A stretch of DNA of 36,764 nucleotides from Desulfohalobiaceae bacterium (GTDB lineage: Bacteria > Desulfobacterota > Desulfovibrionia > Desulfovibrionales > Desulfothermaceae). The stretch covers positions 1-36,764 of the forward strand of contig JAIPDR010000008.1 in the NCBI GenBank assembly GCA_021737615.1, given 5' to 3'. How positions within the stretch are numbered: position 1 is the first letter of the stretch; every line of letters begins with the position of its first letter. Of this stretch, positions 8,353-33,511 are shown piece by piece. A program made the position numbers and the translations under genes. The notes beneath the pieces were generated by a model that saw nothing but the letters and a program-made list of their open reading frames with translations, did no database searches and had not been told where the DNA came from.

Positions 8353-8379
8353 ATATTTAAGAAAGTTATAACAAGAGGA

Positions 8380-16435: not shown

Positions 16436-16465
16436 ACCACATGAAGCATACCCAGGGTTAACTAT

Positions 16466-18154: not shown

Positions 18155-18225
18155 TTTTCTGTGATCCGGGGGCCTGTTTTCGGTTTTGGAACCAGCTTGA
18201 AAGATTATCAAAGGGGTGTCGAGAA

Positions 18226-18921
18226 ATGGCTCTGAAACGAGTTGAAGAAATCGAGGCCGGCACCTGCGGCCAGGTACCAGCCTTAACAATGCCCGCCATC
18301 TTTCCATACGTTCTGCCCTTTTTTTTCTTTGCCCTGATCACTTATCTCGGTCCCCTGCTGGACCTGCCGGCAGTGGTGGCCTATCCGCTGAAAACCGTCC
18401 TGGTTGGCGCCAGTCTCATCTTTTTCTGGAGGCGGTTTCATGGGGAGATCAGGTGGCAAATGGACTGGCCGGCCGTTGCCGGAGGCATTCTGGTGTTTCT
18501 GGTCTGGATTCTGGCTGAAGGGCATTACCCGCAGCTGGCCGGCCAGGCCGGACGAACGCCTTTTTCCTTCGAGTCTCACCATACCTTTTTCTTCTATGTG
18601 CTTTTTCGTCTTCTGGGGGCGGCAGTTGTGGTTCCGATCATGGAGGAGCTGTTCTGGCGCTCCTTTGCCCTCAGGTTCTTGATCGATTCCGGCTTCAAGA
18701 AGATAGCTCTGGGGAGGTTCACCTGGTTTTCATTTCTGACCGTTTCCCTGGCCTTTGGATTCGAGCATCACCGCTGGCTTCCCGGGATTGCAGCCGGCCT
18801 GGTCTATGCTCTTCTCCTATACCGCAGCAAAAACCTCTTCTCCCCCATCCTGTCCCATGCCCTGACCAACCTGCTGCTGGGCCTTTATGTACTAAAGACC
18901 GGGCAGTGGGGTTTCTGGTAA
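18226..18921 (+). CDS. CPBP-family intramembrane glutamic protease, exosortase-associated
   Basis: Predicted inner-membrane CAAX-protease-like (CPBP/ABI) enzyme of the kind repeatedly found in PEP-CTERM loci. There are six to seven hydrophobic segments. The three family motifs are present: EELFWRSFALR (EExxxR), FGFEHHRW (FxxxH) and HALTN (HxxxN), so the active site looks complete. Substrate unknown. It lies 71 bp after the ATPase gene in the same direction and probably shares its transcript. At 231 residues it is of normal length. It could process secreted or lipoprotein components of the sorting system, but nothing in the sequence shows which. Confidence 0.88.
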   Translation: MALKRVEEIEAGTCGQVPALTMPAIFPYVLPFFFFALITYLGPLLDLPAVVAYPLKTVLVGASLIFFWRRFHGEIRWQMDWPAVAGGILVFLVWILAEGHYPQLAGQAGRTPFSFESHHTFFFYVLFRLLGAAVVVPIMEELFWRSFALRFLIDSGFKKIALGRFTWFSFLTVSLAFGFEHHRWLPGIAAGLVYALLLYRSKNLFSPILSHALTNLLLGLYVLKTGQWGFW

Positions 18922-19135
18922 GAAGATGGTCAAGCCCAAGCCACAGCCGACCCCAACCATCCCGCACAGCAAAGAACATTTTTTTAAATGGCTTACATAA
19001 CATGATGCAGTAAATTGCCATTACTTGTTCCTAAGAAGAACTGCCTTGCACACCGGTCAAAGCAACCCACAAGACAATCAAAATATTATCGTTTAAAAAC
19101 AATGTCTTACAAGAAAAGGATCTTTGGGTCCGATC

Positions 19136-19151
19136 TGGCACAAATCATGCA
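19136..19151 (+). promoter_or_regulatory. Sigma-54 (RpoN) -24/-12 promoter for the PEP-CTERM gene
   Basis: TGGCAC-AAATC-ATGCA matches the RpoN consensus, with the invariant GG (19137-19138) and GC (19149-19150) exactly ten bases apart. Transcription would start near 19162, giving a leader of about 290 nt before the ATG at 19452. The PrsR-like GAFTGA activator encoded at 10776-12188 is the obvious candidate regulator. TGCAA-type half-sites flank the element (19161-19167 and 19182-19190). Confidence 0.75.
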
Positions 19152-19182
19152 ATGTATTTGCTGCAAGCTGACCTTTTTCGTG

Positions 19183-19304
19183 ATGCAAAGAAAAGGGACA
19201 AAACCGCGTTCTCGCGTGGACAAAGCCAAACCCGCCGTGTGGCGGGAAGTGGAAGCCACGGGTTTCAAGAAGAAATCCGGGCTGCCGGGTGAAGCCGGCT
19301 TCAC
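19183..19304 (+). ncRNA. Structured mRNA leader, possibly a degenerate c-di-GMP-I (GEMM-I) element
   Basis: Between the RpoN promoter and the PEP-CTERM ATG lies a dense set of inverted repeats: CGCG-TTCT-CGCG (19205-19216), CCCGCC-GTGT-GGCGGG (19231-19246), GTGG-AAG-CCAC (19249-19259), and a perfect 16-bp palindrome GTGAAGCCGGCTTCAC (19289-19304). AAACCC (19228) can pair with GGGTTT (19260) only by breaking the second hairpin, so two folds compete. Segments like GGGACAAAACC, GGACAAAGCC and AAGCCACGGG appear in the order of GEMM-I core segments, but none matches the consensus exactly. It could instead be a dispersed structured repeat. The remainder of 18922-19451 has no supported gene. Confidence 0.3.
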
Positions 19305-19451
19305 ACACAGGGCTCAGCTGCACTTTAAAGACATCCGACTCAACTGGAGGAAGTATGCTTATTCGCGACCCCCCTTTAATTTCCGTTTAACTTGTGCAAA
19401 GTCAGGCTGCATATAGCATGAACCCGCAAACAATCCGAAAGGAGGAGAACC

Positions 19452-20318
19452 ATGAAACGTTTGACATTCAAGATCTTTCTAATACTTCTGTTATTGTGCT
19501 TTCTTGTTCCGAGCCAATCTTTTGCTTTTTTAACAAACTGGGCTATTGATTTCGATGGCGACGGCGACTTGACCACGAACACCCTCAACGTAAGTGAACA
19601 GGTTGACAATGCTGGAACCGCCTGGATTGACAACGACCCCGAAAGCAATTCATTTAATGAATGGGGGACTTTTTGGGCTCCTGGTGCTGACGGAGCACCA
19701 AACATTCCGAGCGGTTATGAGTTGACGGCCATTTTTACCGCCAGCGGGAGCCTTGACCCCGCCACTAACACAGCCAGCTTTGCCAGCGGAGCCTTAGATA
19801 TCTATGTCGATGATGCACTGAATTATGGGTCAAGTACCAGCATGGCGGATGGCATCTATTACGGCGCCAACGACGGAACCCTGATCGGCGGTTTTGATTT
19901 GACCGGCGGAAGCGGCGCGATTGATCCGGATAACAACGCCCCAAACGGGATACAAACTACCTTCTGGGAATCCAACTTCCTGGAAGAAGGCTACTGGTTT
20001 GACGAAAACGGTAACGACTTGTCCTTTTTAGACCCTTTCAGCTTCTTCACCGGGATTGCAACAACCAATGCTTCATGGTTGAACAACTTTGCGAATGCAG
20101 CTGCCCGCGACGAAATCTACTACGAATTCGCCGGAAATCCTGAAGGCCTTACAAACCCTGCTTTTCCACCAAATAACGTGGAAGATGGTTTATGGTTCTC
20201 CGGCAACGGTCAGTTCCGGGTAAACGTAATCCCGGAACCCGCAACCATGCTGCTCTTTGGTACCGGCCTGCTCGGGTTGGCCGGTCTCGGGCGGCGGAGA
20301 TTCTTCAAGAAAAGCTAA
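19452..20318 (+). CDS. PEP-CTERM surface protein (exosortase substrate, PepA-like)
   Basis: Secreted protein with a signal peptide (about 1-25, ending SFA) and a textbook C-terminal sorting tail: IPEPATMLLFGTG, a hydrophobic helix, then the basic RRRFFKK. Exosortase is expected to process it near the PEP motif. The mature body of about 230 residues is rich in Asp, Asn, Gly, Thr and aromatics, has only two Arg, and has no Lys, His or Cys. That fits an acidic, beta-rich extracellular matrix protein. Segments YELTAIFTASGSL, SGALDIYVDD and FFTGIATTNAS resemble flocculation-associated PepA-type PEP-CTERM proteins as I recall them; this needs a search. The ribosome site AAGGAGGAG is very strong. 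It has its own promoter and terminator. Confidence 0.92.
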   Translation: MKRLTFKIFLILLLLCFLVPSQSFAFLTNWAIDFDGDGDLTTNTLNVSEQVDNAGTAWIDNDPESNSFNEWGTFWAPGADGAPNIPSGYELTAIFTASGSLDPATNTASFASGALDIYVDDALNYGSSTSMADGIYYGANDGTLIGGFDLTGGSGAIDPDNNAPNGIQTTFWESNFLEEGYWFDENGNDLSFLDPFSFFTGIATTNASWLNNFANAAARDEIYYEFAGNPEGLTNPAFPPNNVEDGLWFSGNGQFRVNVIPEPATMLLFGTGLLGLAGLGRRRFFKKS

Positions 20319-20338
20319 TCACAGTCCAAACAGTTTTT

Positions 20339-20372
20339 AAAGGGGCGCCTGATACCGTTCAGGCGCCCCTTT
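20339..20372. terminator. Strong intrinsic terminator between convergent genes
   Basis: A perfect 14-bp stem (AAAGGGGCGCCTGA at 20339-20352 and TCAGGCGCCCCTTT at 20359-20372) with a six-base loop lies 21 bp after the PEP-CTERM stop codon. T-rich sequence follows on the plus strand, and TTTAAAAACTG follows on the minus strand. It probably ends both the PEP-CTERM transcript and the convergent six-gene operon that ends at 20407. Confidence 0.9.
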
Positions 20373-20406
20373 ATCGTTTCCGGGTCGATTGTCGGCTGAA
20401 ATTATC

Positions 20407-21522
20407 TCATCCTTTCTGTACATAGAATAAGAGTGTCTTTTCGATGGCGGCTTCAGCAACAAATCCCCCCTGGCCTGCAGCTGCCATGACCGACCGGGTT
20501 TGTCTGTTCTCGAAGACCCTGTTTCCCTGCAGGTAGTCAAAAAAGACAGGCAAGACCTTCATGGCTCGTTTGGCTTTGCCTGAGACCAGAAGAGCTATCA
20601 GCGGCAGGGCCGACCGGAACAACCACAGCGGTATGATCTTTGTTTTGGGTATGTTCCGACCGGCGGCTCTGAATGTGGATTGAGCCCTGCCCATGACTTC
20701 CATCAGATCCAATGCCATGTCCGGCCCTCCGCAGTGGTGCAGGACCCGGCCGGCTGTCTCCTCCTGCCGGCTCGACCAGGCAAGGGCTTTGGCCACGTAA
20801 TCCACGGGAACGATGTCCAGCAAGACCCCCTGCAGATCTGGTACAAAGCCCAGGGTCCTCCTGCCGGACAGAAATTCACAGATATGATAGAAGACCTGAA
20901 AATTGATGATCTTCCCGGTTTGCGAGTCACCGACAACCATGCTGGGGCGATGCATGGTGACAGGCAGGCCCTGCTCGGCATGCGGCCTGATATAGTCTTC
21001 AGCCTCTGCCTTGGCCTGCTCGTAAGTGTTGTGGAACTCTCTCTCTTCAATGATAAAGCGCTCAGGGATACTGCCCTGCATGCGTCCGCCGACCCCGACG
21101 GTGCTGACGAATTCCACCTTCTTTAGAGTTCCCTCTTCGCGGCACCTTCGGGCCAGTTCGATCACGTTCCCGGCCGAACCAAGGGCGGACCGCCTGGCCT
21201 CCTCCAGCGGCAGGTTCATACGTACATTGCCGGCGCAGTGGATGATATGGGTGCACTCCCTGCTAAGGGCCTCAAAATCCTTTTGCTCCAATCCGAAACA
21301 CGGTTCGGTCGCATCGCCTTGAAGCGGGACGATCCTCTCCTGAACATCCTGATATCCGAACCCCCAGAACGAGAGCAGTCCCTCGAATCTCTCCCGCAGG
21401 TGCCCTCTGTCCCCGGCCCTAAGCAAAAGTTTGAGCCTGGCCCCGGGAATATGCAGCAGTTCCGGGATCAGGGCCGCGCCGACCGCCCCGGTCGCACCGG
21501 TCACGAAATAGACATCAGTCAT
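20407..21522 (-). CDS. NAD(P)-dependent SDR, thioester-reductase/fatty-acyl-reductase-like
   Basis: Extended short-chain dehydrogenase of the NAD_binding_4 kind, a family that includes fatty acyl-CoA reductases and terminal thioester reductases. The nucleotide-binding TGATGAVG is at residues 8-15, the catalytic Ser/Thr is near 140-141 and the YxxxK motif is Y167-E-Q-A-K171. The region PVTMHRPSMVVGDSQTG and a VDYV motif for the bound substrate follow. The start ATG overlaps the stop of the ligase gene by 4 bp (ATGA), so translation is coupled and the reductase probably acts on the thioester or acyl-adenylate made by that ligase. The product (aldehyde or alcohol) is inferred, not shown. It is the last gene of the operon. 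Confidence 0.8.
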   Translation of the reverse strand: MTDVYFVTGATGAVGAALIPELLHIPGARLKLLLRAGDRGHLRERFEGLLSFWGFGYQDVQERIVPLQGDATEPCFGLEQKDFEALSRECTHIIHCAGNVRMNLPLEEARRSALGSAGNVIELARRCREEGTLKKVEFVSTVGVGGRMQGSIPERFIIEEREFHNTYEQAKAEAEDYIRPHAEQGLPVTMHRPSMVVGDSQTGKIINFQVFYHICEFLSGRRTLGFVPDLQGVLLDIVPVDYVAKALAWSSRQEETAGRVLHHCGGPDMALDLMEVMGRAQSTFRAAGRNIPKTKIIPLWLFRSALPLIALLVSGKAKRAMKVLPVFFDYLQGNRVFENRQTRSVMAAAGQGGFVAEAAIEKTLLFYVQKG

Positions 21523-23366
21523 GCTGTTATGACCTTGAGGCTTCCGTGTCCCTGCTGCCCGGCTTCGGCCAGAGCTTTCCTTCCCTGCTGCCCGGCTTCC
21601 GACAGGGCCGTGTAGAGATCATCAATGCTTTTTTTGTATTTCTCGCGAATCACCTGCCGGCGAAGCTTCAGGTTGGAAGTCAGCTCCCCCTTCTCAACAG
21701 TAAACGGCTCTGCGGTCAGTATGAGTCCTGCCGGTCGTTGATACCTGGGAAGGGCCTCGATTTCCCTCTGTACCTGCTGTTTGATTTTTGCAATGAATTG
21801 TTTGGGAATGAACTTTTGCCTGCCTTTCGTGCTGCAGGCCTCTTTGTTTGCTGCCTGGGAAAGATCTGGAAGCGGGACGACCAGGACAGCGATGAGATGT
21901 TTTCTATTGTCCCCGAATATGACCGCATGCTCCACAGACGGAATCGTTCGCAGCCGATCCTCGATGCCGGCCGGGGAAACCCTCCGTCCGGTGGAGGTCT
22001 TTATCATTTCCGAGCGCCGGCCGATCAGGTTTATAAAGCCATCGTCGTCAATGGCGGCCACATCTCCGGTATGGAGATATCCCCGGCTGTCCAGCTCTAC
22101 CTCTTCTGTTTCCCCGGTATAATAGGCAGTACACAGACCCTCCCCTTTCACCAGGACCTCTTTTTCCTTGGAAAGCAGAATCTCGTTTGCCGGCAACGGC
22201 TTGCCCACCGTCCCGAATTTATAGGCATAGGGCCGGTTTATGGCCATAGGCACGATATTCTCGCTGATGCCGTAAGCCTCCAGGATCAAAAGGCCCATTG
22301 CCTGAAACTTATCCAGAAGCCACTCCGGCATGGGGGCTGATCCGCTGACCATGAACCGGATCTTGCCTCCCAGTACCTTGCGGAGCCGTTTAAGAACAAG
22401 GGGATCGAGCAGGCTGTAGAGAAGGCTGTTGCCAAACTTCTCAGTCCGGTTTTCACGGACTGACCGGGCGCGTTCCTGGCCGACCCGGAGAGCGGAACCG
22501 ATCAGCCCGCGGACAGGGGCCGGTTTTTTCTGAATTTCTCGAATCAGACCTTCGTACACCTTTTCGAAAAAGCGGGGAACACCTATGAAGACGTCCGGTG
22601 TGATCTCCGGCAGCAGATCGAGAATCTTTCCGGGGTCGGTCACAAAAAAAGTGGATCCATTGATCATCACCGCGCAATGATTGATCATGCGCTGGAAAAG
22701 GTTGGACAGAGGCAGCCAGCAAACCAGCTTCGAACCTTCCCCCATGCCTGGAAAGGCCTCAACAATGACCCTGCAGGCCAGGACGGCCTGCCTGTGTGTG
22801 TAGCAAATGCCTTTGGGAGTCCCGGTCGTACCCGAGGTGAAGATGATCGTGGCCGCTGCCTCCGGAGAAGAGGCGTCGATATCTTCCCAGGTGCCTGCCT
22901 CCTGCTCAGCCCGTACCCGGCTCAGGGGGATGCAGTAGTGTCCGTCATCGCCTCGATCGTCCACAGCCAGGACAAACCGTAATCCGGATTTTGTCCGCTC
23001 ATCGAGCCTGTCCAGGTACCTTGCTTCCTGCACCACTAATGCCGAGACGTCCGCCCGCCTGATGATCGCGTTTACATTGTCTCCGGTCTCGCTCGGATCA
23101 ACGCCGACCACCACCCCTCCGGCCGAAAGAACGGCCATCTGGAGAAGCTCCCAGGTCTGCGAAGCCGGGGCCATGATGCCGATGTGCCCTCCCGGCCGCA
23201 TCCCCAGGCTGATGAGCCCCCGGACCAGGCTGCGAACGATTTGCCCTGCTTCTTCCCAGGTGGTAAAAAGCCAGTTGCCTTTCTCGTCGCGGACATAATG
23301 GGCCGGCGCCTGGGGCGTCTTTTGTATACGCTCCCTGAACAAGGCCGGAATAGTTTGAGCAGTCAT
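21519..23366 (-). CDS. AMP-forming acyl-CoA ligase (long-chain fatty acid type)
   Basis: ANL-superfamily adenylating enzyme of the long-chain (FAA1-like) group, activating a carboxylic acid as acyl-AMP and then a thioester. Motifs in order are the P-loop TIIFTSGTTGTPKG, the LEAYGISEN core, the YLHTGDVAAIDDDGFINLIGR hinge region (A8/A9) and GRRVSPAGIEDRL. The catalytic A10 lysine region is likely in the C-terminal part. At 615 residues it has the usual length for this group. The extreme C-terminus carries an 11-residue duplication. Its start overlaps the PP-loop gene by 4 bp and its end overlaps the reductase gene by 4 bp, so the three proteins are likely made in step. Confidence 0.9.
   Translation of the reverse strand: MTAQTIPALFRERIQKTPQAPAHYVRDEKGNWLFTTWEEAGQIVRSLVRGLISLGMRPGGHIGIMAPASQTWELLQMAVLSAGGVVVGVDPSETGDNVNAIIRRADVSALVVQEARYLDRLDERTKSGLRFVLAVDDRGDDGHYCIPLSRVRAEQEAGTWEDIDASSPEAAATIIFTSGTTGTPKGICYTHRQAVLACRVIVEAFPGMGEGSKLVCWLPLSNLFQRMINHCAVMINGSTFFVTDPGKILDLLPEITPDVFIGVPRFFEKVYEGLIREIQKKPAPVRGLIGSALRVGQERARSVRENRTEKFGNSLLYSLLDPLVLKRLRKVLGGKIRFMVSGSAPMPEWLLDKFQAMGLLILEAYGISENIVPMAINRPYAYKFGTVGKPLPANEILLSKEKEVLVKGEGLCTAYYTGETEEVELDSRGYLHTGDVAAIDDDGFINLIGRRSEMIKTSTGRRVSPAGIEDRLRTIPSVEHAVIFGDNRKHLIAVLVVPLPDLSQAANKEACSTKGRQKFIPKQFIAKIKQQVQREIEALPRYQRPAGLILTAEPFTVEKGELTSNLKLRRQVIREKYKKSIDDLYTALSEAGQQGRKALAEAGQQGHGSLKVITA
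21549..21599. repeat. Direct repeat of 18 bp with 33-bp period inside the ligase C-terminus
   Basis: TCCCTGCTGCCCGGCTTC occurs at 21549-21566 and 21582-21599. On the coding strand it encodes EAGQQG twice in an 11-residue period at the end of the acyl ligase, probably a small in-frame duplication. Confidence 0.85.
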
Positions 23367-24457
23367 AACTGGTTCCCCGTATCTTTGGAATATAACGGCG
23401 GATCATAAGCGCCTCTGGGCTGATTGATCCTGAGATCGTCCTCTTCAAGATCCAGCCACTTAAGGCTCCTGGCGACTTCCCGCCCCAGAAGTATCTTTTG
23501 CCTGATCATGACGTTCACCACCGGGGCCACGACCCTCCAATAGGTCCTGTTGGCCTTTCCTTCCCGGATAAGGGCTGAAAATTCAGGGTGATACGGATTG
23601 TAACCGAAATGTCTGAGATCGGAATACATAAGCAGCCAATTGATCGGATAATTGGTCAGGACTGGATTGGCATGTTTCTTTTTCGAGACAAGCCCTGCCT
23701 CGACAACCGCCTGCATAACCTCTTCCTGATTGTATGTCCAGGCGTGAAACGGAGCCAGGTATCTTGGAAACTCTGTGCCCCGCGGATAGCGATCAGGATT
23801 GAAGAACCTGCCGAGCTCTGATTCAGAAAATATCCCGGACTGCTTCAGGGCTGGCGGGCACCAGTCGGTTTCGCAGATAAGAATGCGGGAAAATTCGTAA
23901 AACATGCGCTCGGGTTCAGGCTGGCCCGGTGAATAACCCGCCAGAATCAAGGGAATGTCTTTTTCCAGGGCGATTCTGATGGCGTCCCCTTCAAACAGGG
24001 GCGCGTAGACATAGGATACGGTATAGACCGCGCCCCGTTCTTCCTGATTTTGCAGGAGGTAGCGAAACAGCTTTGTATAAAAACAAAAGGATGCACTGAA
24101 TGACAGATGATCGATGTCCAGAATGCGTAAGGCGCGTTGGATATTTTTCCAGGCCAGATCCGGTATGTTCACATCCGTGGTAAAAGCCAGGACGTTCAGG
24201 TCGTAATGTTTCTTCAATATATAGAGCAAATACAGGCTGTCCTTGCCCCCGCTGACCGGCACCAGGCAATCGTATTCTCCCCTGCCCCTGCACCGGGATA
24301 AGGCCTGTTCAAGATCAGCCTCTCGTTTCTGACGCTCCTGTTCGTCTCCTTGATTATCCTTGACTTGATAATCACGGCAATACCGGCAGAGCCCCTGCCT
24401 GTCAATATCCGCACCAGGCACTCTCGCCGGCAAAAGACAATTTTTACATGAAGTCAC
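23363..24457 (-). CDS. Zinc-ribbon PP-loop ATPase (N-acetyl sugar amidotransferase-like)
   Basis: Adenine-nucleotide alpha-hydrolase superfamily enzyme. The N-terminus has two Cys pairs (C4-x-x-C7 and C24-x-x-C27), a likely zinc ribbon. The PP-loop SGGKDS is at residues 69-74, followed by FTTDVNIPDLAWKN. This layout is that of the WbuX/LegI-like 'N-acetyl sugar amidotransferase' group, which adenylates a substrate carbonyl and adds nitrogen, usually from a separate glutaminase. No glutaminase gene is adjacent. In this operon the substrate could be an acyl or amino-acid derivative rather than a sugar; that is inference. It starts 33 bp after the exporter gene and overlaps the ligase gene by 4 bp. 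Confidence 0.75.
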   Translation of the reverse strand: MTSCKNCLLPARVPGADIDRQGLCRYCRDYQVKDNQGDEQERQKREADLEQALSRCRGRGEYDCLVPVSGGKDSLYLLYILKKHYDLNVLAFTTDVNIPDLAWKNIQRALRILDIDHLSFSASFCFYTKLFRYLLQNQEERGAVYTVSYVYAPLFEGDAIRIALEKDIPLILAGYSPGQPEPERMFYEFSRILICETDWCPPALKQSGIFSESELGRFFNPDRYPRGTEFPRYLAPFHAWTYNQEEVMQAVVEAGLVSKKKHANPVLTNYPINWLLMYSDLRHFGYNPYHPEFSALIREGKANRTYWRVVAPVVNVMIRQKILLGREVARSLKWLDLEEDDLRINQPRGAYDPPLYSKDTGNQL

Positions 24458-24490
24458 GCCTGATTCCCCGATCCGGTTACAGCCGGCATT

Positions 24491-26815
24491 TTAACACCTT
24501 CCTCTGTGTAAAGATAGCAGAGAAGGGAGCAAAAACAAGTCCCCGAGCATGGCTGTTATCATGATAAGGGCGCTCAGGGCGCCGAAATACATGGTGGGTG
24601 CAAAGCTGCTCAAAACCAGGACCCCGAAGCCGATGCAGAGGATGGAGGACGAAAGCACAATTGCCCGTCCCTTGATGAATATGCTCTCTCCGACCGCCTC
24701 TGAGACACTCCCGCCACGTTTCCTGACCCTGACGTATTGGGACAGAAAATGGATGGTGTCATCCACGGCTATGCCCAGGGCTACAGCTGCAATCAAGGCT
24801 GTGGCTGTGTTCAGGGGGATCCCGGCCAGACCCATGATGCCGAAATTGAGCACCAGGGGGAAACAGTTGGGAACAAGGCTCAACATCCCCAAAGGAAAAG
24901 AGGCCAGGGCAAAACACATGATAAGGGCCACAGCTCCGGTTGCCAGGACCAGGCTCTGAATCTGACCGGACACCAGGGCTTGAATGATATTCACGCTCTG
25001 CACCGCCTGGCCGGTCACCCGGACATTCAATTCCGGCGCCTCCATGCTTTGCACATAGTCCCGGATTTTGGAAATAATACGGGCTTGCTCGGCGGAGCTG
25101 TGCTCTTCGATTCTGGCCATGATCCGCATATGGTCATAGCCCCTGTTGATATACTCATCGATGTCGTCTGAGTCGTACAAAAGCAGATATTGCGAGATCA
25201 ATTCCCGGCTGTCGGGGATGCGGTAATATGCTGGGTCTTCATTGTGAAAAGACTCGTTCATGTCCTTGACAAAATGCGTGTAAGACATGGTTGAATCCAC
25301 GCCCGGCAACTCTTTTATATACGAATCCAGGGCATCGATCCTGCGCAAATGCTCGGGTTCCTTGAACCCGTCTCTTTGTTTGGATCGGACGGAGACATCC
25401 ACGACACCTATCCCGCTCAAGCGTTCTTCAACAAAGTTCACGGATTTTCTGATCCTGGAATTTTTATGAAAATACTCAATCATATTGGTTTCTACCTCGA
25501 TCCGGGTGGCTGCAACTGATGCTGCCAGCACGAGTAGCCCCCCGAGAAGCACAATCTTTCGGGCATGGGCCCCGACCTGTACAGTGCTGAACTTAAGGAA
25601 CCAATTCAAAGGTCCCGGGCTGCGGTCCTCGAAGTAGAGCTTTTCGGGTGGAAAGAACAAGATGAGCGGGGGCAGGAAGCAGAAGGCAAAGAAGAACTCA
25701 AAAACCATACCGGCCGCGGCCAGGCAGGCGAACTGCCTGATTGGTTCCAGATCGCTCACAGCCAGAGAGAGAAACCCTGCAGCCGTTGTCAGCGTGGTCA
25801 AAAAGCAGGGAACCGCCACCCGCTTCAGGACATGGCCCAGGGCCTGACCCTTGTCCGGGAACCTCCTCAGAACCGAATGCTGCATATGAGAAAAAATGTG
25901 AACCACATCGGCCAGAGACAGGGCCATGACCAGGGGCGGGACAATGGTCGTCACATTATTTATGGACATTCCCAGGATCCTGAACAGGCCCATGGTAGAG
26001 ACAAGACAGGCCGAGATCGTGGCCATGGCCAGAACGGTCAAGCGAAGGTTCCGAAAAAAAAGAAAGACCACAGCCGCAACAAGCAGATAGGTGATCGGAA
26101 TAAATCTGACCAGGTCCTTTTGCATGAATTGGCTCAGAGTGTAGTTGGTCACGGTCCAGCCGGCCAGGTGATAAGTGGTGTCGTCTTTCTGGGATTGCAG
26201 TATGCTGTGTGTTGCAGCCAAAAGCTCTTGTCTGTAGTTCGGATCTCCGGGTCGATCATGGACAAAGACGACTATGGCTGCCGTTCTGCCGTCCCTGGAG
26301 ATTATATTGTTGACATAGAGCGGATTGTCAGAAGCCTCCTTTTTGAGTTCGGCCAGTTTCGCCTCTGATTCCGGTATGTCCTTTAGAAATGAAGAGATGT
26401 AAAAATAGCCCTCTTCTCCGACTATATCATCCACGTTGGCCAGGCTGACCACATCCCGGACCAGTTCCGAGGACTCCAGTTTACTGGTGATCTTCTTGAT
26501 CAGGCCCAAGCTGTCCGGGGTAAAGATGTCTTGATGTTCAAAGGCGATGACAAAGAACTCGTCATTGCCGAAGACCTCCTTGAACTCTTCATAGAATTTC
26601 TGGTCCGGATGGTCCTTGAGTCTGAAGTAGTCCACGTTGCTCACCGTCCGCACAAAGGGGGCAAAGCTGCCGAAACCAGCGGCCACGATCAGGGAGAGGA
26701 CGAGGAAGAACCTGGGAAAACGGGTGATGAAATCCATTATACGGTGTATCGATGAGTCAATGCTATAAACGGCCTGAAGGGCATAGGGGCGAAAGGCTGG
26801 CCGGTCAATCGGCAT
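24491..26815 (-). CDS. MMPL/RND-superfamily exporter (HpnN-like lipid transporter group)
   Basis: Inner-membrane RND-type permease of the MMPL branch, with about twelve membrane helices in two repeats. The first helix is near residues 35-55, then comes a periplasmic domain. A bundle follows near 230-400 (VRFIPITYLLVAAVVFLFF, TIVPPLVMALSLADVVHIFSHM), then a second single helix near 420-440, a second periplasmic domain, and a last bundle near 640-770 (ALGIAVDDTIHFLSQY). The Asp residues in the two LADVVH and AVDDTIH helices are the family's proton-relay positions. At 774 residues it is typical of lipid-handling MMPL proteins. The ATG at 26815 was kept; ATG 26737 (MDFITRF) is a possible shorter start. 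The LolA-like gene immediately upstream supports lipid or lipophilic export. Confidence 0.88.
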   Translation of the reverse strand: MPIDRPAFRPYALQAVYSIDSSIHRIMDFITRFPRFFLVLSLIVAAGFGSFAPFVRTVSNVDYFRLKDHPDQKFYEEFKEVFGNDEFFVIAFEHQDIFTPDSLGLIKKITSKLESSELVRDVVSLANVDDIVGEEGYFYISSFLKDIPESEAKLAELKKEASDNPLYVNNIISRDGRTAAIVVFVHDRPGDPNYRQELLAATHSILQSQKDDTTYHLAGWTVTNYTLSQFMQKDLVRFIPITYLLVAAVVFLFFRNLRLTVLAMATISACLVSTMGLFRILGMSINNVTTIVPPLVMALSLADVVHIFSHMQHSVLRRFPDKGQALGHVLKRVAVPCFLTTLTTAAGFLSLAVSDLEPIRQFACLAAAGMVFEFFFAFCFLPPLILFFPPEKLYFEDRSPGPLNWFLKFSTVQVGAHARKIVLLGGLLVLAASVAATRIEVETNMIEYFHKNSRIRKSVNFVEERLSGIGVVDVSVRSKQRDGFKEPEHLRRIDALDSYIKELPGVDSTMSYTHFVKDMNESFHNEDPAYYRIPDSRELISQYLLLYDSDDIDEYINRGYDHMRIMARIEEHSSAEQARIISKIRDYVQSMEAPELNVRVTGQAVQSVNIIQALVSGQIQSLVLATGAVALIMCFALASFPLGMLSLVPNCFPLVLNFGIMGLAGIPLNTATALIAAVALGIAVDDTIHFLSQYVRVRKRGGSVSEAVGESIFIKGRAIVLSSSILCIGFGVLVLSSFAPTMYFGALSALIMITAMLGDLFLLPSLLSLHRGRC

Positions 26816-26899
26816 GTGGCTGGTTAAGAATCCTTCGGCGGTTTTTTCTGTTCACTGTTCTTCCCCAGGCCTCGTTCTTCCTGGCCCACCGGCCAGCAA

Positions 26900-27682
26900 C
26901 TACCAGCTTTCCAGATAACGTTTGGTGAAATAAGAGGCATTGATGTCCGTGTTGTAGGCGATCCGCTCAATACGGATAATCGTCTCGTGCCCGTCACGGA
27001 GGTCCTTCATGGAGTACTGCAAAGGTGTCCAGATGTCCTCGACCTTTTCCAGCCTGTCGACTTGGTAGGACTTGATATGAACTTGAGCGTCATTGAATAT
27101 TTCCATTTTCACGGGCAAAAAGATGTCTTTGGGGATCCAGGAGCGGATCAAGGTGTATTCAGACTCGGCCTTCGGCAGAGGCCTGGTTTCCAGCACCCGG
27201 CACTCGAGCCCTTTGACATTTTCTAGACCGGCAAGGGTATGCTCTGAATCGTCCACCGGACGCCGCTGCATATCCTCGTAGGTAAAGTCGGAATTGACGA
27301 AAGACCTGCCCTTCTGGCTGGTCACGATCCGCCTGGTTCGATTCAGAGCCGGCAGATACAGGAACTGCTCAGTCCGGCCTGCGCCCTTTTCCACGGAAAG
27401 GAATCCGGTCCCGGCTATATCCGGGGGTGAGGTAAACCTGATGAAGTTCCTGCGAAGACCGCTCTCCTGCTCCAGACTCAACCAGGTCATGTCCCGGATA
27501 CGCTTGTCCCCGCCCTCAGCCGCAAGGATCATGACCGCCTCGGATGCAAAATTGTCCCCGACGTAGCGGTCGTGGACCCTTCGGGCCAGTTCGCGGCCGC
27601 TGAGTCCGGTTTCGTCCTGGGCACTGGCAAGACAGGGGACCAGCCATATCAGGAGCATACAAATAAGTAGTACTCGTTGCAT
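26900..27682 (-). CDS. LolA-like periplasmic outer-membrane lipoprotein-sorting protein
   Basis: Periplasmic protein with a clear signal peptide (cleavage near SAQ, residue 21) and a LolA/LolB-like half-barrel. Characteristic segments are RNFIRFTSPPDIAGTGFLSV, FLYLPALNRTRRIVTSQKGRSFVNSDFTYEDM and the later YSMKDLRDGHETIIRI. This subfamily (often labelled outer membrane lipoprotein-sorting protein) is regularly encoded next to MMPL exporters. It is thought to ferry lipophilic cargo across the periplasm; here it sits 84 bp upstream of the exporter gene. It is not the housekeeping LolA, judging by context and the longer length (260 residues). Confidence 0.88.
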   Translation of the reverse strand: MQRVLLICMLLIWLVPCLASAQDETGLSGRELARRVHDRYVGDNFASEAVMILAAEGGDKRIRDMTWLSLEQESGLRRNFIRFTSPPDIAGTGFLSVEKGAGRTEQFLYLPALNRTRRIVTSQKGRSFVNSDFTYEDMQRRPVDDSEHTLAGLENVKGLECRVLETRPLPKAESEYTLIRSWIPKDIFLPVKMEIFNDAQVHIKSYQVDRLEKVEDIWTPLQYSMKDLRDGHETIIRIERIAYNTDINASYFTKRYLESW

Positions 27683-27725
27683 CGTCTATTCCAGTTGTTC
27701 ATTGCTGATTGTTTGCGTGTTGGTC

Positions 27726-28643
27726 TTACAGTCTCAAACCTGGGTAGGCCTTCAGGAAGTCACTTTTCTGCGGCTCGCTCAATCCCTTGAGAAGACTCGG
27801 ATCAAGGTCTATAAAATACTGCACTGTCTCCGTTTCCAGCCTCGATATCTGCACTGTCATCTGAAAAATGTCGGGATCGAAAAAGGGAATGTCTTTTCCC
27901 GGTTTCAGCCCGGTCATGCGGTAAAAATAGGCATACAAAGGAGTATCGAAGTCCAGTTCCTTGCAGATCTGCATCATCCGTTCCATGGCTTCCCTGACTT
28001 TTCCCCGCAATCCGACCGCAGGCGCTTCCACCCGAGCATATTTCCGTTCCGGCCCGAAAATCTCGAATGGGAACAAGTTCTTGTAGTAACGAACATGCCT
28101 CGGGTTCACGGCGATACAAACGTCGTCGACCTCTGTGTAGACCGAATACCAATACATGACCTGGACTAGATAATGAAAGATGTTCTTCCAGCGATGCTCC
28201 CTGGGCGTGGCCAGAGTCGAGAGTTCGACTATTTTCCGGCCCTGGTTCCGGAACCGGTCCAACTCCTTCCTGTAGATGCCGTCCATGGGCAGACCAAATG
28301 TCTTGCTGTCGAAAATTTCCGTTAAGGTGGAAATGACCGTCAAATATGATTTGGCGACAATGTGCGTGGTCTCCGGGAGAAGCGAATAGATTGAATAGAG
28401 CATCCCGTGCGAGGCGGGCCGTTTGATGTATTTCTTCTTGAAGTAGACTTCATAGACCAGGGAGAAGGCCTGGGCCAGTTCATCCCTGTTTTCAGCGAAT
28501 TTGACGGCCGGGCGGTCCAGACCCTCCAACTCGTTTGCCTGGATCCCGGAACGCTTGATCCTGACCGTACGCCGCCGCTCGTCCGTTATCAGTGTATCGT
28601 ACCGGGAGAGTATCTGCTTCATCTGCTCATGTTGGTCATACAT
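27726..28643 (-). CDS. PEP-CTERM/exosortase-associated N-acyltransferase (FeeM/LuxI-like GNAT fold)
   Basis: First gene of the six-gene operon. The fold is that of N-acyl amino acid synthases (FeeM) and autoinducer synthases. There is an N-terminal substrate-loading region (FAENRDELAQAFSLVYEVYF), then STLTEIFDSKTFGLPMD, the central IVELSTLATPREHRW stretch (E140) where relatives have an E-I/V-S-R motif, and NPRHVRYYKNLFPFEIFGPERKY. These enzymes join an acyl-ACP chain to an amine. Here Thr143 replaces the usual Arg of the ESR motif, so the donor or acceptor may differ. The family is known to travel with exosortase systems. Start ATG 28643 has no good ribosome site; ATG 28622 is an alternative. 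Confidence 0.83.
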   Translation of the reverse strand: MYDQHEQMKQILSRYDTLITDERRRTVRIKRSGIQANELEGLDRPAVKFAENRDELAQAFSLVYEVYFKKKYIKRPASHGMLYSIYSLLPETTHIVAKSYLTVISTLTEIFDSKTFGLPMDGIYRKELDRFRNQGRKIVELSTLATPREHRWKNIFHYLVQVMYWYSVYTEVDDVCIAVNPRHVRYYKNLFPFEIFGPERKYARVEAPAVGLRGKVREAMERMMQICKELDFDTPLYAYFYRMTGLKPGKDIPFFDPDIFQMTVQISRLETETVQYFIDLDPSLLKGLSEPQKSDFLKAYPGLRL

Positions 28644-29050
28644 TATTTTGACATGTAAAGAATAACATCGATCCAGTCAACATAAAATTTTTCCCGGACA
28701 AAATGAAGAGGATACAGGGCTGACCGCAGGGAAAACCTGAGGCAGAAAAGGGTCCGTCCGAGCCCGCTGCCTTTGAGTAATGCTTGAGCGACGGTTAGCA
28801 CGGCTATATACCGGCGCGAGGGTGATTTTAAAGATTGACAATGAACAGAGTACCGGTTTAAAATCTGCGAAAGTTAGGGATACGTTTTTCTGAAGGCGAT
28901 AAACTTAACACTTTCGAAGTCAAAAAATAGTATCCGATCCTATATATTTAAACCGCATACTGACCTGATTTTGGTTCTGCTGCAAACTATTTCATAATGA
29001 ATACCGGGGAATAAGGTAAGCAGGATCAGTATGATATAAAATAAGAGTCA
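28644..29050. other. Divergent intergenic region
   Basis: About 400 bp separates the acyl operon from the divergent acyltransferase-Crp gene. No gene is seen. The plus-strand promoter is listed separately. On the minus strand TTGACT (28675-28680, read in reverse) with a poor -10 near 28652-28657 is a weak promoter candidate for the operon. A regulator encoded at 29051 could bind here and control both directions; this is inference. Confidence 0.5.
28835..28864 (+). promoter_or_regulatory. Sigma-70-type promoter for the acyltransferase-Crp gene
   Basis: A perfect -35 box TTGACA (28835-28840) and -10 box TAAAAT (28859-28864) are separated by 18 bp. Transcription would start near 28871, about 180 nt before the ATG at 29051. 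Confidence 0.6.
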
Positions 29051-30256
29051 ATGCCGATCAATCTCAGAAGAGCCAAGAATACTGCGGAGAAAGACCTGGT
29101 GTATACTTTGCGGCACAAGGTCTTTGTCGAAGAAGAGCTGCGGTTCTTGAACCACTCTTCCCGAATCTACGATTTCTATGACAGCTTCGATGAAACCGTG
29201 AATATCCTGGCCTTTGACGGCGACAGACCGGTCGGCTCGATTCGGGTCACCCTGGATAATCCTGTCGGTCTGCCCGCGAGCGAGTTCTACGATTTCTCCG
29301 GCTATATCTCCAGGTTGCGCGGCAAATGCGCGAGCATCGGCTGGCTGTGCGTCCTGCACCGGTACCGCCGCCACCCCGGTCTGCTCATGGGCCTTCTCAA
29401 AATGGTCGTGCGGGAGATGCGACGAACCGATTGCCGGCACATCATAACCACGGTCCATCCGCCCATTTTTGAAATGCTCAAACATGGCTTCGGGGCCAGG
29501 GCCGTGGACAACGTGTTTGAATCCGGAGAACTCAAGGTCCCCATGCTCCCGGTGCACATCGATACCCACAAGGCGCCTCCAGGCGCCCTGGAGCCCTTCC
29601 GTGATCCGCCGAATCCGGTACTCGAAGAATCAATGGAACGACGTATCTACCACCGCAAAGAAGTTATTTTCAAACACGGTGAAACCGCCCGGGAAGCCTT
29701 TTACATCATGCGCGGCTCAGTCCGGAATCTTCCCCTTGGGCATAAAGCAATCAGCTGGAAGATGAAGCAAGGCCCCCTCGCACCGGATGATGAACTTTTG
29801 AGCAGAGGAGAAATCTTCGGCGTCCTGCCCCTCCTGGACAATGGACCGCGTGTTCACACCATGATACCCTACTCCCATGAAGTCGATGTCATGGTCTGGT
29901 CCATCGAGAACATCGAGAATCAGCTTCTGGAGTCACCGAAAAAAACCATGAAGGTCGTCCAGTCCTTCAGCAGGCGATTGCGGCAAAAAATCGAAGGAAA
30001 CGTGCGCCGGCCCAACGCGGCCGAGGTGGCCAATGTGCTCTTCGATGCTTCCGAGGAAGGGAAAAAGTCCGTGCGCAAGGACTGGCTGGGACGTCAATGC
30101 GGCATTTGGCCTCACAATCTGGAAGAGATCATCGCCTCCTGGACACACAGCGACATTATTCACCCGCAGAACGGATTCATCAATGTCACCGATGCACACC
30201 GACTGCACGCACTGGGAACCTTGACCAGGGAAACGGGACTGCATCCGCTCCACTGA
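29051..30256 (+). CDS. Acyltransferase (GNAT/autoinducer-synthase-like) fused to a Crp/Fnr-type regulator
   Basis: Residues 1-175 are a GNAT/FeeM-like acyltransferase, with an N-terminal YTLRHKVFVEEEL loading helix, the central strand SIGWLCVLHRYRRHPGLLMG (acyl-pantetheine-binding loop) and FEMLKHGFGAR. Residues 195-310 are a cyclic-nucleotide-binding-like beta-roll (RKEVIFKHGETAREAFYIMRG...FGVLPLLDNGPRVHT). The phosphate-binding-cassette Glu found in Crp is replaced by Val in FGVLPLL, so cNMP binding is doubtful. Residues 335-395 form a winged helix-turn-helix matching Crp (KDWLGRQCGIWPHNLEEIIASW, then GFINVTDAHRLHALG). This is an enzyme and a DNA-binding regulator in one chain. It lies divergent to the acyl operon and may sense acyl-ACP or product and control that operon; this is inference. 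Confidence 0.78.
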   Translation: MPINLRRAKNTAEKDLVYTLRHKVFVEEELRFLNHSSRIYDFYDSFDETVNILAFDGDRPVGSIRVTLDNPVGLPASEFYDFSGYISRLRGKCASIGWLCVLHRYRRHPGLLMGLLKMVVREMRRTDCRHIITTVHPPIFEMLKHGFGARAVDNVFESGELKVPMLPVHIDTHKAPPGALEPFRDPPNPVLEESMERRIYHRKEVIFKHGETAREAFYIMRGSVRNLPLGHKAISWKMKQGPLAPDDELLSRGEIFGVLPLLDNGPRVHTMIPYSHEVDVMVWSIENIENQLLESPKKTMKVVQSFSRRLRQKIEGNVRRPNAAEVANVLFDASEEGKKSVRKDWLGRQCGIWPHNLEEIIASWTHSDIIHPQNGFINVTDAHRLHALGTLTRETGLHPLH

Positions 30257-30337
30257 ATCCGGAACTTCAGGCTCCGGTGATACCGCAAAAATTTCCGGGT
30301 TAAGGCTTTGAAAACCAGGAAAAGAGGGATCCGGATA

Positions 30338-31879
30338 CTAAAAATAGTACTCCAGCCGCAGGTAGGCCTGATCGTTGTTGTCGTACTGCCCCATAAGGGT
30401 ATCCGGATTTCCTTCGAATACGTCCAACCCGATCTCAACCTCCAATGCAGGCTTGATTTGAACGAGCAGCCGGGGATTGAAGGCATAGGAACCGTCGCTC
30501 AGGAAATACAGACCCTCTAGGCCTGCCTCGGCTCTCCCCCGGAAAAACTCCCGGCTCAATTCCCAGCTGAGTCCCCAGTTGTCCTGTTCGAAATAGAGGA
30601 TATCCTCCTGGTGATCAAAGACGTGCTGATGCAGAACCTGGACATTGGCGTACCAGTCCTTTTTTCCGAGGTAGTCCAGTCCCAGCACTGAAAAAAGGCT
30701 TTGTCTGTCCACAGAGGTCAGATTATCTGTGAGAAAGGTCCGGGCATCGAAATAGGCGCTCTCACCCCGCAGGCCAAAGTCGCCAGCCGTGGTCTCGAAA
30801 TCCAGTCCAATCATCTGCGAACGCAGATACTTTGCCCGGACGACCTCACCGGTCACCACGGCCTGTGCAGCCTGCTCCTCCAGATTTTCAGCGTCGATCG
30901 CACCGCTGACACTGATGTTCTGCACCGGAAATTCGACAAAATGGGGCCTGGGGTCGTATCCGTACAAATAGCTCGCACCGATGTCCACCCGGCCGAGGGT
31001 CGTGGCCACCCTGGCTCCGAGGGATCCGTTTTCCAGGGTGTCGGCCGGTTCATCCTCGTCGACCCCGATATCCGCAAAGAAATCCCTGAAAGCCGGATTC
31101 ACGGGGCTGTCCCGGACATCTTCCTTGACATGTCTGAAAACAGCCCAGTCTGTCCCGAAAAAATCGAGCTTGTCCTCGCGGAAAAAAGGAATGTAGACAC
31201 CCTCAAGGGTCACGGCCTCCAGAAAGAGACGCGCCCTGAACATCCAGTTGGGCAGTTTGCGCTCCTCCCGGTCCGGGAAGGTAAAAAGCCTCAAATCCTG
31301 GGCATTGACGGCGTCCAGCGGGCTGATTTCATCCGTCTTTCCCCAGCGGACCAACTGCTTGCCCAGTCTGAGCTGAAGCGGCCCCTGACCCCAGTTCAAG
31401 TAGGCTTCGTAGATTTCCAGATCATAATCGTCCCGGCTCTCCTTCGGTCCGAACCAGAGATAGTCCGCGTCTCCGGAGAGAACCAGGTATGTCCTGCCGG
31501 CCTTCAAACCCGGAACCAGGACTGGTTCATCCTCGGGCAGGCTGTACCTGAGCTCCGCCCTGATCCTGTTTCTGAAGGCCCTCTCATCTTCGTTGCCCCT
31601 ATCGCCGTGCAGATCGTTTGCTCCGTATATCCTGGCGAAGCCGGAAAAGCGCAGGGCGCCTTCCGGCCACAAAGCTCCCGGACCATCGGCATCTTGTTCT
31701 CCGAAAGCGTCTTTTTTTTCAGCGGACGAATCAAAAATGATGGTCTGCTTACCGAATTCCGGATTATCTCGAATCGATACCTGCCCGGCCGCCGGGGCAA
31801 GCTCCTGAAAACAGAAGCATGAGATAATGACAATTATCACTGACAGGACAGGACATGCAATCCTGGACATTTCCGGCAT
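30338..31879 (-). CDS. DUF1302-type outer-membrane beta-barrel protein
   Basis: Predicted outer-membrane protein with a signal peptide (about 1-31, ending PAAG) and a large barrel ending in the LRLEYYF strand, whose terminal Phe is the Bam signal. The segment LQLRLGKQLVRWGKTDEISPLDAVNAQDL is diagnostic of the DUF1302-like family. Such proteins are often encoded with MMPL exporters and LolA-like periplasmic proteins, which are both present in the neighbouring operon. The three together would span inner membrane, periplasm and outer membrane. It converges with the acyltransferase-Crp gene and is not in the six-gene operon itself. Its gene is followed by a 214-bp gap before the ABC transporter genes. 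Confidence 0.82.
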   Translation of the reverse strand: MPEMSRIACPVLSVIIVIISCFCFQELAPAAGQVSIRDNPEFGKQTIIFDSSAEKKDAFGEQDADGPGALWPEGALRFSGFARIYGANDLHGDRGNEDERAFRNRIRAELRYSLPEDEPVLVPGLKAGRTYLVLSGDADYLWFGPKESRDDYDLEIYEAYLNWGQGPLQLRLGKQLVRWGKTDEISPLDAVNAQDLRLFTFPDREERKLPNWMFRARLFLEAVTLEGVYIPFFREDKLDFFGTDWAVFRHVKEDVRDSPVNPAFRDFFADIGVDEDEPADTLENGSLGARVATTLGRVDIGASYLYGYDPRPHFVEFPVQNISVSGAIDAENLEEQAAQAVVTGEVVRAKYLRSQMIGLDFETTAGDFGLRGESAYFDARTFLTDNLTSVDRQSLFSVLGLDYLGKKDWYANVQVLHQHVFDHQEDILYFEQDNWGLSWELSREFFRGRAEAGLEGLYFLSDGSYAFNPRLLVQIKPALEVEIGLDVFEGNPDTLMGQYDNNDQAYLRLEYYF

Positions 31880-31946
31880 AGTGCATCCAGCTGATTTTTT
31901 GCAGACATTTTCAAGCGATTTAAATACAGAAAATTCTGAGGAGATA

Positions 31947-32090
31947 ATGAAGAATTTTACCTCCCCGGGTACAGGACGTCAAGGAAAAGGAAGGCTTTTG
32001 CAGGTGATCGACTTGAAAAAAACGAGAACCAATCCCGGCACTGATTTTTCCAGGAAAGCGAGGCGCATTTATGACATGGTACTAAAATGA
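31947..32090 (+). CDS. Doubtful small basic protein of 47 residues
   Basis: A 47-codon frame starts at an ATG three bases after GAGGAG, a strong but closely spaced ribosome site. It occupies the gap between the DUF1302 gene and the ABC ATPase gene, on the other strand from both. The product would be rich in Lys and Arg (RKARRIYDMVLK end) with no recognisable domain. It may be chance. Confidence 0.18.
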   Translation: MKNFTSPGTGRQGKGRLLQVIDLKKTRTNPGTDFSRKARRIYDMVLK

Positions 32091-32093
32091 TTA

Positions 32094-32747
32094 TCAATTC
32101 TCTGATAATTTAAAGCGTCCATTTTCCATAAGCAGGAAGCTGTCGCTGACCCCTTCCAACCAGGACCGATCGTGGCTGACCAGGATGATCGTGGTTCCCC
32201 ACTTCTGCCTGGCGGCCAGCGAGGCCCGGCGGATCCGTTCTGTGCTCTCCTCGTCCAGATTGGCGGTGGGTTCATCCAAAAGCAGGACTGCGGGCTTGAG
32301 GACAAGTCTGGCCGCAAGGGCAACCCGCTGGGCTTCACCGCCTGAAAGCTGATGCCAGCTCCGTTCCGAGAAGTGTTCAGGCGGCAGCCCAACCAACTCC
32401 AACACCTGGTTGATTTTGGTCTTATGCTCTTTTTCACCCCGTACTTTCAGGCCATAGGCCACATTGGCCCGGACCGAGCGCTTGAGGAGATAGGGATTCT
32501 GGTCCAGGAGCGTGATCCTGCGCCTTATTCGGTCATCTCCGGTGCCGGCCTCCTTCCCCTGAAAGATGAGCCTGCCTGCAACCGGGTCTTCGAGAAGGGC
32601 CATGATGCGCAACAGGGTGGACTTGCCGCTGCCGTTCGGCCCGTACAAGCCGAGGATGCTCCCCCTTTCGACCTCCAGATGCTCGATGTCCAGCACAAGT
32701 CGGCCGGCATACCGCTGTTGAATATTCTCTAATCGATAAATGGACAT
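32094..32747 (-). CDS. tupC: ABC transporter ATPase, tungstate type (TupC-like)
   Basis: Short ABC ATPase of 217 residues. Walker A is GPNGSGKST (about 36-44), the Q-loop is at LLDQNPYLL, the signature is LSGGEAQRV, Walker B is VLLLDEPTANLD and the switch His is in LVSHD. It would energise the permease encoded upstream. The genes overlap at TGATG, indicating coupled translation. The pairing with a TupB-like permease points to tungstate (or molybdate) uptake, needed for tungsten or molybdenum enzymes in anaerobes. The ATPase alone would not fix the substrate. Confidence 0.83.
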   Translation of the reverse strand: MSIYRLENIQQRYAGRLVLDIEHLEVERGSILGLYGPNGSGKSTLLRIMALLEDPVAGRLIFQGKEAGTGDDRIRRRITLLDQNPYLLKRSVRANVAYGLKVRGEKEHKTKINQVLELVGLPPEHFSERSWHQLSGGEAQRVALAARLVLKPAVLLLDEPTANLDEESTERIRRASLAARQKWGTTIILVSHDRSWLEGVSDSFLLMENGRFKLSEN

Positions 32748-33442
32748 CAGTGTTCGATTCTATTTTTTAAAAAAAGCAGGGCCAGATTGACTCCAAAGGC
32801 GATCACCAGAAGGACGAGTCCCAGGGCGATTCCCAGGGCAAACTGACCTTTGTTCGTCTCCAGGGCAATGGCTGTGGTGATGGTTCTGGTGTACCACTTG
32901 ATGTTTCCGCCGACCATCATGGAAATGCCGACTTCGGAGACAATCCGTCCGTAAGCCGTGACCGCTGCCGCCAAAAGGCTGAACCTGGCCTCCCGGACCG
33001 TAGTCAGCAGGACCCTCTTTTTATCCGCGCCAAGTGTCAGAAGGGTCCTTGTGAGCCTCCTGTCCAGATTTTCCACGGCCGTCGCAGTCAGGGCCGTGAT
33101 GATCGGCAGCCCGAGAATGGTCTGCCCGATGGCGATCCCCGGCAGGGTGAAGAGCAGATCGAGCTGTCCCAGAGGTCCTCGCGACGAGATAAAGGTATAG
33201 ACCAGCAGACCGATGACCACGGTAGGAAAGGAGAGCAGGGTGTCCACCAGGAGCCGGATCCCCTTTTTGCCGGGGAACTGATAATGACCCAGCAGAAAGC
33301 CCAGTGGAACCCCGAAAAAGAGACTTGCGGCGATGGACAGGGAAGAGACCCTGAGGGTGCACCAGACCGCGGAATAGGTCTCCGGATGTCCGGAAAATAG
33401 AAAATCAAGGGCCTTGAGCAGACCCTGCCAGATGTAGTCCAT
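32747..33442 (-). CDS. tupB: ABC transporter permease, tungstate type (TupB-like)
   Basis: Inner-membrane permease with about five to six helices and the EAA-loop region LLTLGADKKRVLLTTVREARFSLL. The sequences FPTVVIGLLVYTFISSRGPLG and AEVG-like SEVGISMMVGGNIKWYTRTITTAIALETNKG closely resemble TupB tungstate permeases. The ATG at 33442 (MDYIWQG) is preferred. A longer frame to 33511 would begin MDSGLRRNDG, which is read out of a dispersed intergenic repeat and is not real coding sequence. No substrate-binding protein (TupA) gene lies upstream or downstream in the window. Confidence 0.85.
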   Translation of the reverse strand: MDYIWQGLLKALDFLFSGHPETYSAVWCTLRVSSLSIAASLFFGVPLGFLLGHYQFPGKKGIRLLVDTLLSFPTVVIGLLVYTFISSRGPLGQLDLLFTLPGIAIGQTILGLPIITALTATAVENLDRRLTRTLLTLGADKKRVLLTTVREARFSLLAAAVTAYGRIVSEVGISMMVGGNIKWYTRTITTAIALETNKGQFALGIALGLVLLVIAFGVNLALLFLKNRIEH

Positions 33443-33483
33443 TTTGCGTACTTTCAGTTCGTCAGTTGCCTCATTCTCTTGTC

Positions 33484-33511
33484 CGTCATTCCGGCGGAGG
33501 CCGGAATCCAA
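33484..33511. repeat. Dispersed palindromic repeat of the GTCATTCCGGC type
   Basis: ATTCCGGC (33488-33495) and GCCGGAAT (33500-33507) form a perfect inverted repeat with a GGAG spacer, flanked by GTC and CCA. This is the widespread intergenic element that produces false N-termini reading MDSGLRRNDG. Confidence 0.75.

Follow-up and report, generated by a model that had tools for sequence, protein, structure and literature searches.

A conserved PP-loop, acyl ligase and reductase cassette in a possible acyl-lipid operon beside an exosortase locus of a Desulfohalobiaceae bacterium

The window considered here, the whole analysed stretch of 36,764 nucleotides from a Desulfohalobiaceae bacterium, is one complete contig of a draft genome (3.84 Mb in 280 contigs). 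Its open reading frames include a minus-strand run of six genes, 28643-20407, encoding a FeeM-type acyltransferase, a LolA-like carrier, an MMPL exporter, a PP-loop protein, an acyl ligase and an SDR. Gaps of 43, 84 and 33 bp separate the first four genes, and the last two junctions are 4-bp overlaps. All the frames of this run, with its gaps of 33-84 bp and two overlaps, are present as the initial annotation described them, and the family names that it gave are borne out by Pfam and NCBIfam profile scores. The PF21926, PF17131, PF03176, PF00501 and PF07993 calls on operon genes all exceed the Pfam gathering scores. A strong terminator had also been placed at the operon end. A 15-pair hairpin does lie there, at approximately 20337-20373, between the operon and a convergent PEP-CTERM protein gene; calculated with its flanks, its folding energy is about -37 to -39 kcal/mol for each strand, and it is a candidate terminator shared by the converging genes. 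The hairpin is absent from the list of a simple terminator scan, and its T-run is short on both strands. No RNA family of Rfam was found within the window.

The first operon gene (27726-28643, minus strand) encodes a FeeM-type N-acyl amino acid synthase. The PF21926 match (151.9 bits, cut-off 27) spans profile positions 1-156 of 158, and the product is homologous to the solved FeeM structure 2g0b (E 1e-9). Divergent from the operon is a gene (29051-30256, plus strand) for a FeeM-like acyltransferase fused to a Crp-type regulator (PF21926 70 bits, PF00027 28 bits). Both FeeM-type genes detected in this genome are on this contig. With the PEP-CTERM/exosortase acyltransferase model TIGR03694 (cut-off 112) the synthase gave no match and the fusion 16.3 bits. 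The fusion is possibly the regulator of the operon; the stretch from 28643 to 29051, searched for a palindromic Crp-type site, yielded a single palindrome, weak and imperfect. The same two-domain match occurs in G540, where it adjoins a DUF1302 gene, and in G794 and G876. It was found in none of 127 other genomes of the window's phylum.

The next two genes are of the transport type. One encodes a LolA_like periplasmic carrier (26900-27682, minus strand; PF17131, 190 bits) with a hydrophobic, signal-like N-terminus, and the other an MMPL/HAE3-type RND exporter (24491-26815, minus strand; PF03176, 110.9 bits), which scores 210 bits with TIGR00921, below its cut-off. A DUF1302 outer-membrane protein (30338-31879, minus strand; PF06980, 59.9 bits, cut-off 23.2) is encoded 1.7 kb outside the operon and is possibly the outer-membrane part of an export route. 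That this protein and the acyltransferase-Crp fusion flank the operon, as had been described, agrees with Pfam. The same three transport families occur in AmeABCD of Castellaniella, where an HAE3 pump, a DUF1302 protein and a LolA-superfamily protein form an export set (PMC6394551). In that set one cassette holds the pump, the DUF1302 protein and a pair of periplasmic LolA/chaperone-like proteins; the present locus has one periplasmic protein, a second not being found there, has its DUF1302 gene outside the operon, and includes biosynthetic genes.

The last three operon genes form a cassette. Its second gene (21519-23366, minus strand; PF00501, 178 bits) encodes an AMP-forming long-chain acyl ligase that is ACSL/FadD11-like. 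The best NCBIfam match is NF038343 (FadD11), below cut-off, and the P-loop and C-terminal Lys are invariant in 15 homologues. Phages gave acyl ligase matches at 24-30% only, which are uninformative. The exosortase A-associated ligases of TIGR03098 are likewise AMP-forming acyl ligases of exosortase loci, and their relatives adjoin the sister PP-loops described below; the window ligase differs in being ACSL-like, about 25% identical to them, and it scores 115 bits where the cut-off is 592. The third cassette gene (20407-21522, minus strand; PF07993, 165 bits) encodes an extended SDR of the thioester-reductase type. Its best PDB relative is the MxaA terminal reductase domain (4u7w, E 1.6e-38), its TGxxGxxG, ST and YxxxK motifs are invariant in 19 homologues, and with TIGR01746 it reaches 126 bits of the 213 set as cut-off. 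On the carboxylic acid reductase model NF041592 the ligase aligns to the adenylation part and the SDR to the reductase part. The two resemble the A and R domains of carboxylic acid reductase and of NRPS/PKS terminal reductases (MxaA, MxcG), catalytic motifs included, but are here separate proteins with no carrier domain.

The first cassette gene (23363-24457, minus strand) encodes a zinc-ribbon PP-loop ATPase. It has no Pfam match; the family that comes closest, TIGR03573 (WbuX / N-acetyl sugar amidotransferase), gives 117 bits, where its curated model requires 203. The conserved CxxC..GxCxxC and SGGKDS motifs (C4, C7, C24 and C27; S69-S74) fit the definition given for N-acetyl sugar amidotransferases, CxxC-Xn-[GN]xCxxC with SGGxDS (PMC10607449). 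An AlphaFold (AF2) model, with a pLDDT of 91.6, finds its best fold match, over the full length, in LpNASAT (8wex_A/8wex_B; TM 0.61-0.65, 367-376 columns, E about 1e-12); the tRNA thiolases TtuA and NcsA come next and are far weaker (TM 0.3-0.4). As judged from this model, the protein has the N-acetyl sugar amidotransferase fold. That fold is best known from sugar amidination. Nitrogen transfer thereby becomes a specific proposal, with sugar modification as a serious competitor.

The tetracysteine zinc motif, the SGGxDS PP-loop and the full-length fold are shared with WbpG, WbuX and LpNASAT (TIGR03573, 8WEX). Unlike these, the window protein is below the family cut-off, is about 20% identical in the fold alignment, is separated from the sister lineage by a long branch in the tree, and is partnered by an acyl ligase and an SDR in an operon without HisH/HisF. 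In a published EPS cluster with an N-acetyl sugar amidotransferase-type enzyme, HisF2 and HisH subunits adjoin it (PMC11340318, which concerns a sugar pathway and mentions exosortase). No HisH/HisF-type ammonia-supplying partner was found among the ten proteins scanned at 20407-33511. Likewise, His_biosynth and GATase are not in the 25 families commonest among 129 neighbours of other cassettes, a ranking compatible with single occurrences. Because of its score and the missing partners, the protein was not classed as a sugar amidotransferase.

A full exosortase/EPS locus was detected with NCBIfam profiles at 2010-20318, on the same contig as the six-gene operon. It contains an XrtA-type polysaccharide deacetylase, an exosortase (3143-4063, minus strand; TIGR02602, 187 bits, cut-off 105.6), EpsI, a TIGR03016 protein, an export protein, EpsB_2, a tyrosine kinase, a chain-length protein, a sigma-54 regulator, PrsT, a PEP-CTERM ATPase and a CAAX-like protease. 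The PEP-CTERM protein encoded convergently with the operon (19452-20318, plus strand; NF033554, 84.9 bits, cut-off 80) is of the flocculation PepA type. No acyl ligase or amidotransferase is among the genes scanned in this locus. EpsI and the exosortase are separate genes, EpsI first (3143-4789), and fused XrtD/XrtW models are the best or near-best match for both. Between the sigma-54 regulator and PrsT is a gene for 395 amino acids (12706-13893) without any NCBIfam match. A sigma-54-like -24/-12 site with one mismatch (19136-19151) precedes the PEP-CTERM gene of 19452-20318; across the window, sites of this kind are no commoner than chance predicts.

The cassette of PP-loop, ligase and SDR genes was complete in 23 of the 25 non-cyanobacterial genomes examined. 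Of the two incomplete cassettes, one is cut by a contig end and one (in Kiritimatiellae) is without a detected SDR. Gene order is near-constant in the 25, with a rearranged locus in Pseudoxanthomonas. For 18 non-redundant loci, the pairwise distance matrices of these proteins are correlated (Mantel r 0.82-0.86), and by this measure of sequence divergence the three genes co-evolve. The cassette is the conserved unit, and FeeM, LolA, MMPL and DUF1302 are variable partners. The initial annotation had proposed a six-gene system, and the families do co-occur elsewhere. For example, G241, a distant member of the same phylum, holds all six together with DUF1302 within about 23 kb: MMPL, PP-loop, ligase and SDR form one run, and LolA_like, DUF1302, a GNAT/FeeM-like gene and PEP-CTERM proteins are nearby. 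G1104 carries, in sequence, FeeM, LolA_like, PP-loop, ligase, SDR and PEP-CTERM protein, the first five ordered as in the window, with DUF1302 upstream and a MacB/FtsX pair downstream. The six families as a fixed system were rejected, however, because only the PP-loop-ligase-SDR part is constant.

The partners vary from genome to genome. FeeM/GNAT relatives lie within about 10 kb of the cassette in 11 of the 25 genomes, so that cassette and FeeM may not share a substrate. Exporters near the cassette, where present, are of the lipid/lipoprotein type: three genomes have MMPL there, 9-10 have MacB/FtsX permeases, and none has both. A DUF1302 protein is also encoded beside the cassette in G241, G1104, G1207 and G1209. 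Across whole genomes, PF21926 matches occur in all 24 other cassette genomes searched and in neither of two cyanobacteria that have the PP-loop gene alone; among 201 Methylococcales genomes, taken as background, 135 have some match and 103 one above the cut-off. A single genome of Kiritimatiellae (G444, L037) has fifteen FeeM-family matches, some within long open frames.

Sixty genomes drawn from the window's own genus, family and order yielded no PP-loop orthologue, which makes the cassette patchy and not lineage-wide. The distant G241 has an orthologue at 64%. A scan of named genomes gave matches in Methylomonas, Accumulibacter, Kiloniellales, Pseudoxanthomonas and Kiritimatiellae, as well as relatives at 51% in Nostoc and Microcystis; targeted searches added genomes in Methylococcales and the Accumulibacter family, and plasmids gave no match. 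In a tree, cassette PP-loops, including the two cyanobacterial relatives, are split from the other PP-loop homologues of the phylum by a branch of length 1.9 (support 92/95). The window copy is placed among Pseudomonadota copies and the Kiritimatiellae copy groups with Methylomonas, placements that suggest horizontal transfer. In Nostoc and Microcystis the 51% relative is surrounded by another conserved cluster (L041, 3561-11083; L042, 3799-11086) with a cupin, MAPEG, ThiF, a PLP lyase, GST and a haem-oxygenase-like protein.

The tie of the operon families to exosortase/EPS genomes that had been proposed is upheld both by the locus on the same contig and by genome counts. In Methylococcales an exosortase over cut-off is present in 9 of 9 PP-loop-positive genomes as compared with 125 of 201 overall (Fisher p 0.012), and in the Accumulibacter family in 9 of 10 as compared with 108 of 200 (Fisher p 0.018). 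With both groups pooled, 18 of 19 PP-loop-positive genomes have an exosortase. These p values ignore the relatedness of the genomes compared, and the link of cassette to exosortase is therefore a probable one of moderate strength. Only a minority of exosortase genomes have the cassette, which thus cannot be a general requirement for exosortase. The cassette genomes are mostly makers of an exosortase/PEP-CTERM coat, and the operon would probably serve that coat.

FeeM genes beside PEP-CTERM systems have been published (Craig et al. 2011, as cited in PMC11072679). The first operon gene is a clear member of these exosortase-linked N-acyl amino acid synthases (PF21926; Craig, Cherry and Brady 2011) and shares with them an exosortase genome, here with the exosortase on the same contig. 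What sets it apart is that its transcript also covers an exporter and an activation-reduction-amidotransfer cassette. In Methylomonas sp. LW13, mutating an exosortase-type N-acyl amino acid synthase impaired both formation of the polysaccharide band and gradient-culture growth (PMC11072679). The LW13 genome carries the cassette (L036); it is the acyltransferase, and not the cassette, that this result connects with the EPS layer.

The PP-loop homologues used as outgroup, from the same phylum and about 28% identical, form a sister lineage. In 19 of their 20 loci (L099-L118) an AMP-forming acyl ligase lies within about 5 kb, usually adjacent. These ligases are TIGR03098-like, 22-27% identical to the window ligase. 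Many of the loci have a polysaccharide deacetylase, and several carry exosortase, EpsI, EpsB_2 or XrtA-type deacetylase. From this pairing, the PP-loop protein with an acyl ligase looks like a recurrent accessory of exosortase-type systems, and this recurrence is the most informative new fact of the analysis. That the partners of the PP-loop protein are ligases of two only distantly related types points to an enzyme whose substrate or product is an acyl compound. A further step, which we regard as a long shot, would make the pair a general exosortase accessory with at least two independently evolved forms, whose nitrogen-headed lipid is, or is joined to, the acceptor for PEP-CTERM proteins cleaved by exosortase.

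The preferred reading, to which we give a probability of about 0.42, is that the operon makes, tailors and exports an acyl-lipid accompanying the exosortase/EPS surface layer. The analysis establishes gene content and order, the conservation of catalytic residues, the predicted PP-loop fold, co-evolution of the three cassette genes, and their co-occurrence with exosortase and FeeM; the pattern of synthesis, modification and export noted earlier finds support in the gene families. We infer the substrates, step order, product and transport direction as follows. FeeM would acylate an amine or amino acid with acyl-ACP as donor. A long-chain acyl acid, whether the N-acyl amino acid from FeeM or a fatty acid of separate origin, would be activated by the ligase with ATP, and the SDR would use NAD(P)H to reduce the activated thioester to an aldehyde or alcohol. 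The PP-loop enzyme, again with ATP, would place nitrogen on the acyl-amide or an acyl-derived carbonyl in an amidine- or amide-forming step. The lipid would then be flipped or extruded by MMPL and ferried across the periplasm by the LolA-like protein, and DUF1302 may pass it to or through the outer membrane.

A true nucleotide-sugar amidotransferase, making an acetamidino sugar for EPS as WbpG/WbuX do (PMC10607449), would account for the full-length match to 8wex. The ligase and SDR would then add an acyl or aldehyde decoration to that polysaccharide, and the product would be a decorated sugar with no free lipid. Sister PP-loops sit within EPS loci and an EpsB_2-type sugar transferase directly precedes the cassette in most Methylomonas loci, but the score under the TIGR03573 cut-off, the lack in the operon of the HisF2/HisH that adjoin such an enzyme in the known EPS cluster (PMC11340318), the absence of His_biosynth/GATase from the top shared neighbour families, and an acyl ligase as the constant PP-loop partner in two lineages make this unlikely. 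The thio-transferase version, ending in a thio-acid or thioamide lipid, is very unlikely. In its favour are TtuA/NcsA as next-best folds and, in cyanobacteria, the sulfur-relay-like setting of the PP-loop relatives with ThiF and a PLP lyase; TtuA/NcsA match far more weakly than 8wex, though, and the operon has no iron-sulfur or sulfur-relay gene.

Alignment of ligase and SDR to the two parts of NF041592, and the nearness of the SDR to MxaA, a terminal thioester reductase, would suit a carboxylic-acid-reductase route split over two proteins, with a fatty aldehyde or alcohol (a wax- or anchor-like lipid) as its product and the PP-loop enzyme acting on a separate step. We consider this quite unlikely, as no carrier-protein domain lies between ligase and SDR and the strict PP-loop linkage is left unexplained. 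Comparably improbable is that one transcript carries two independent units with no common product, FeeM-LolA-MMPL as maker and exporter of an N-acyl amine and the cassette as the other. Most Methylomonas cassettes indeed have no adjoining FeeM, LolA or MMPL; against this separation, the cassette recurs joined to FeeM-LolA in G1104 and to MMPL in G241.

A text search of open-access papers found no description of the PP-loop-ligase-SDR cassette; the one paper retrieved that names both exosortase and N-acetyl sugar amidotransferase concerns a sugar route with HisF2/HisH (PMC11340318). In two lineages, acyl ligases accompany an ATPase of the sugar-amidotransferase fold, and this suggests a reaction type not yet assigned to that fold. 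Because the cassette is compact, apparently mobile and present in cultured, genetically tractable Methylomonas, it offers a direct route to an exosortase-linked lipid or sugar modification.

Adjoining the locus on the far side from the exosortase genes, at 32094-33511, are genes that score below curated cut-offs and resemble TupB/TupC of a tungstate-type ABC transporter.
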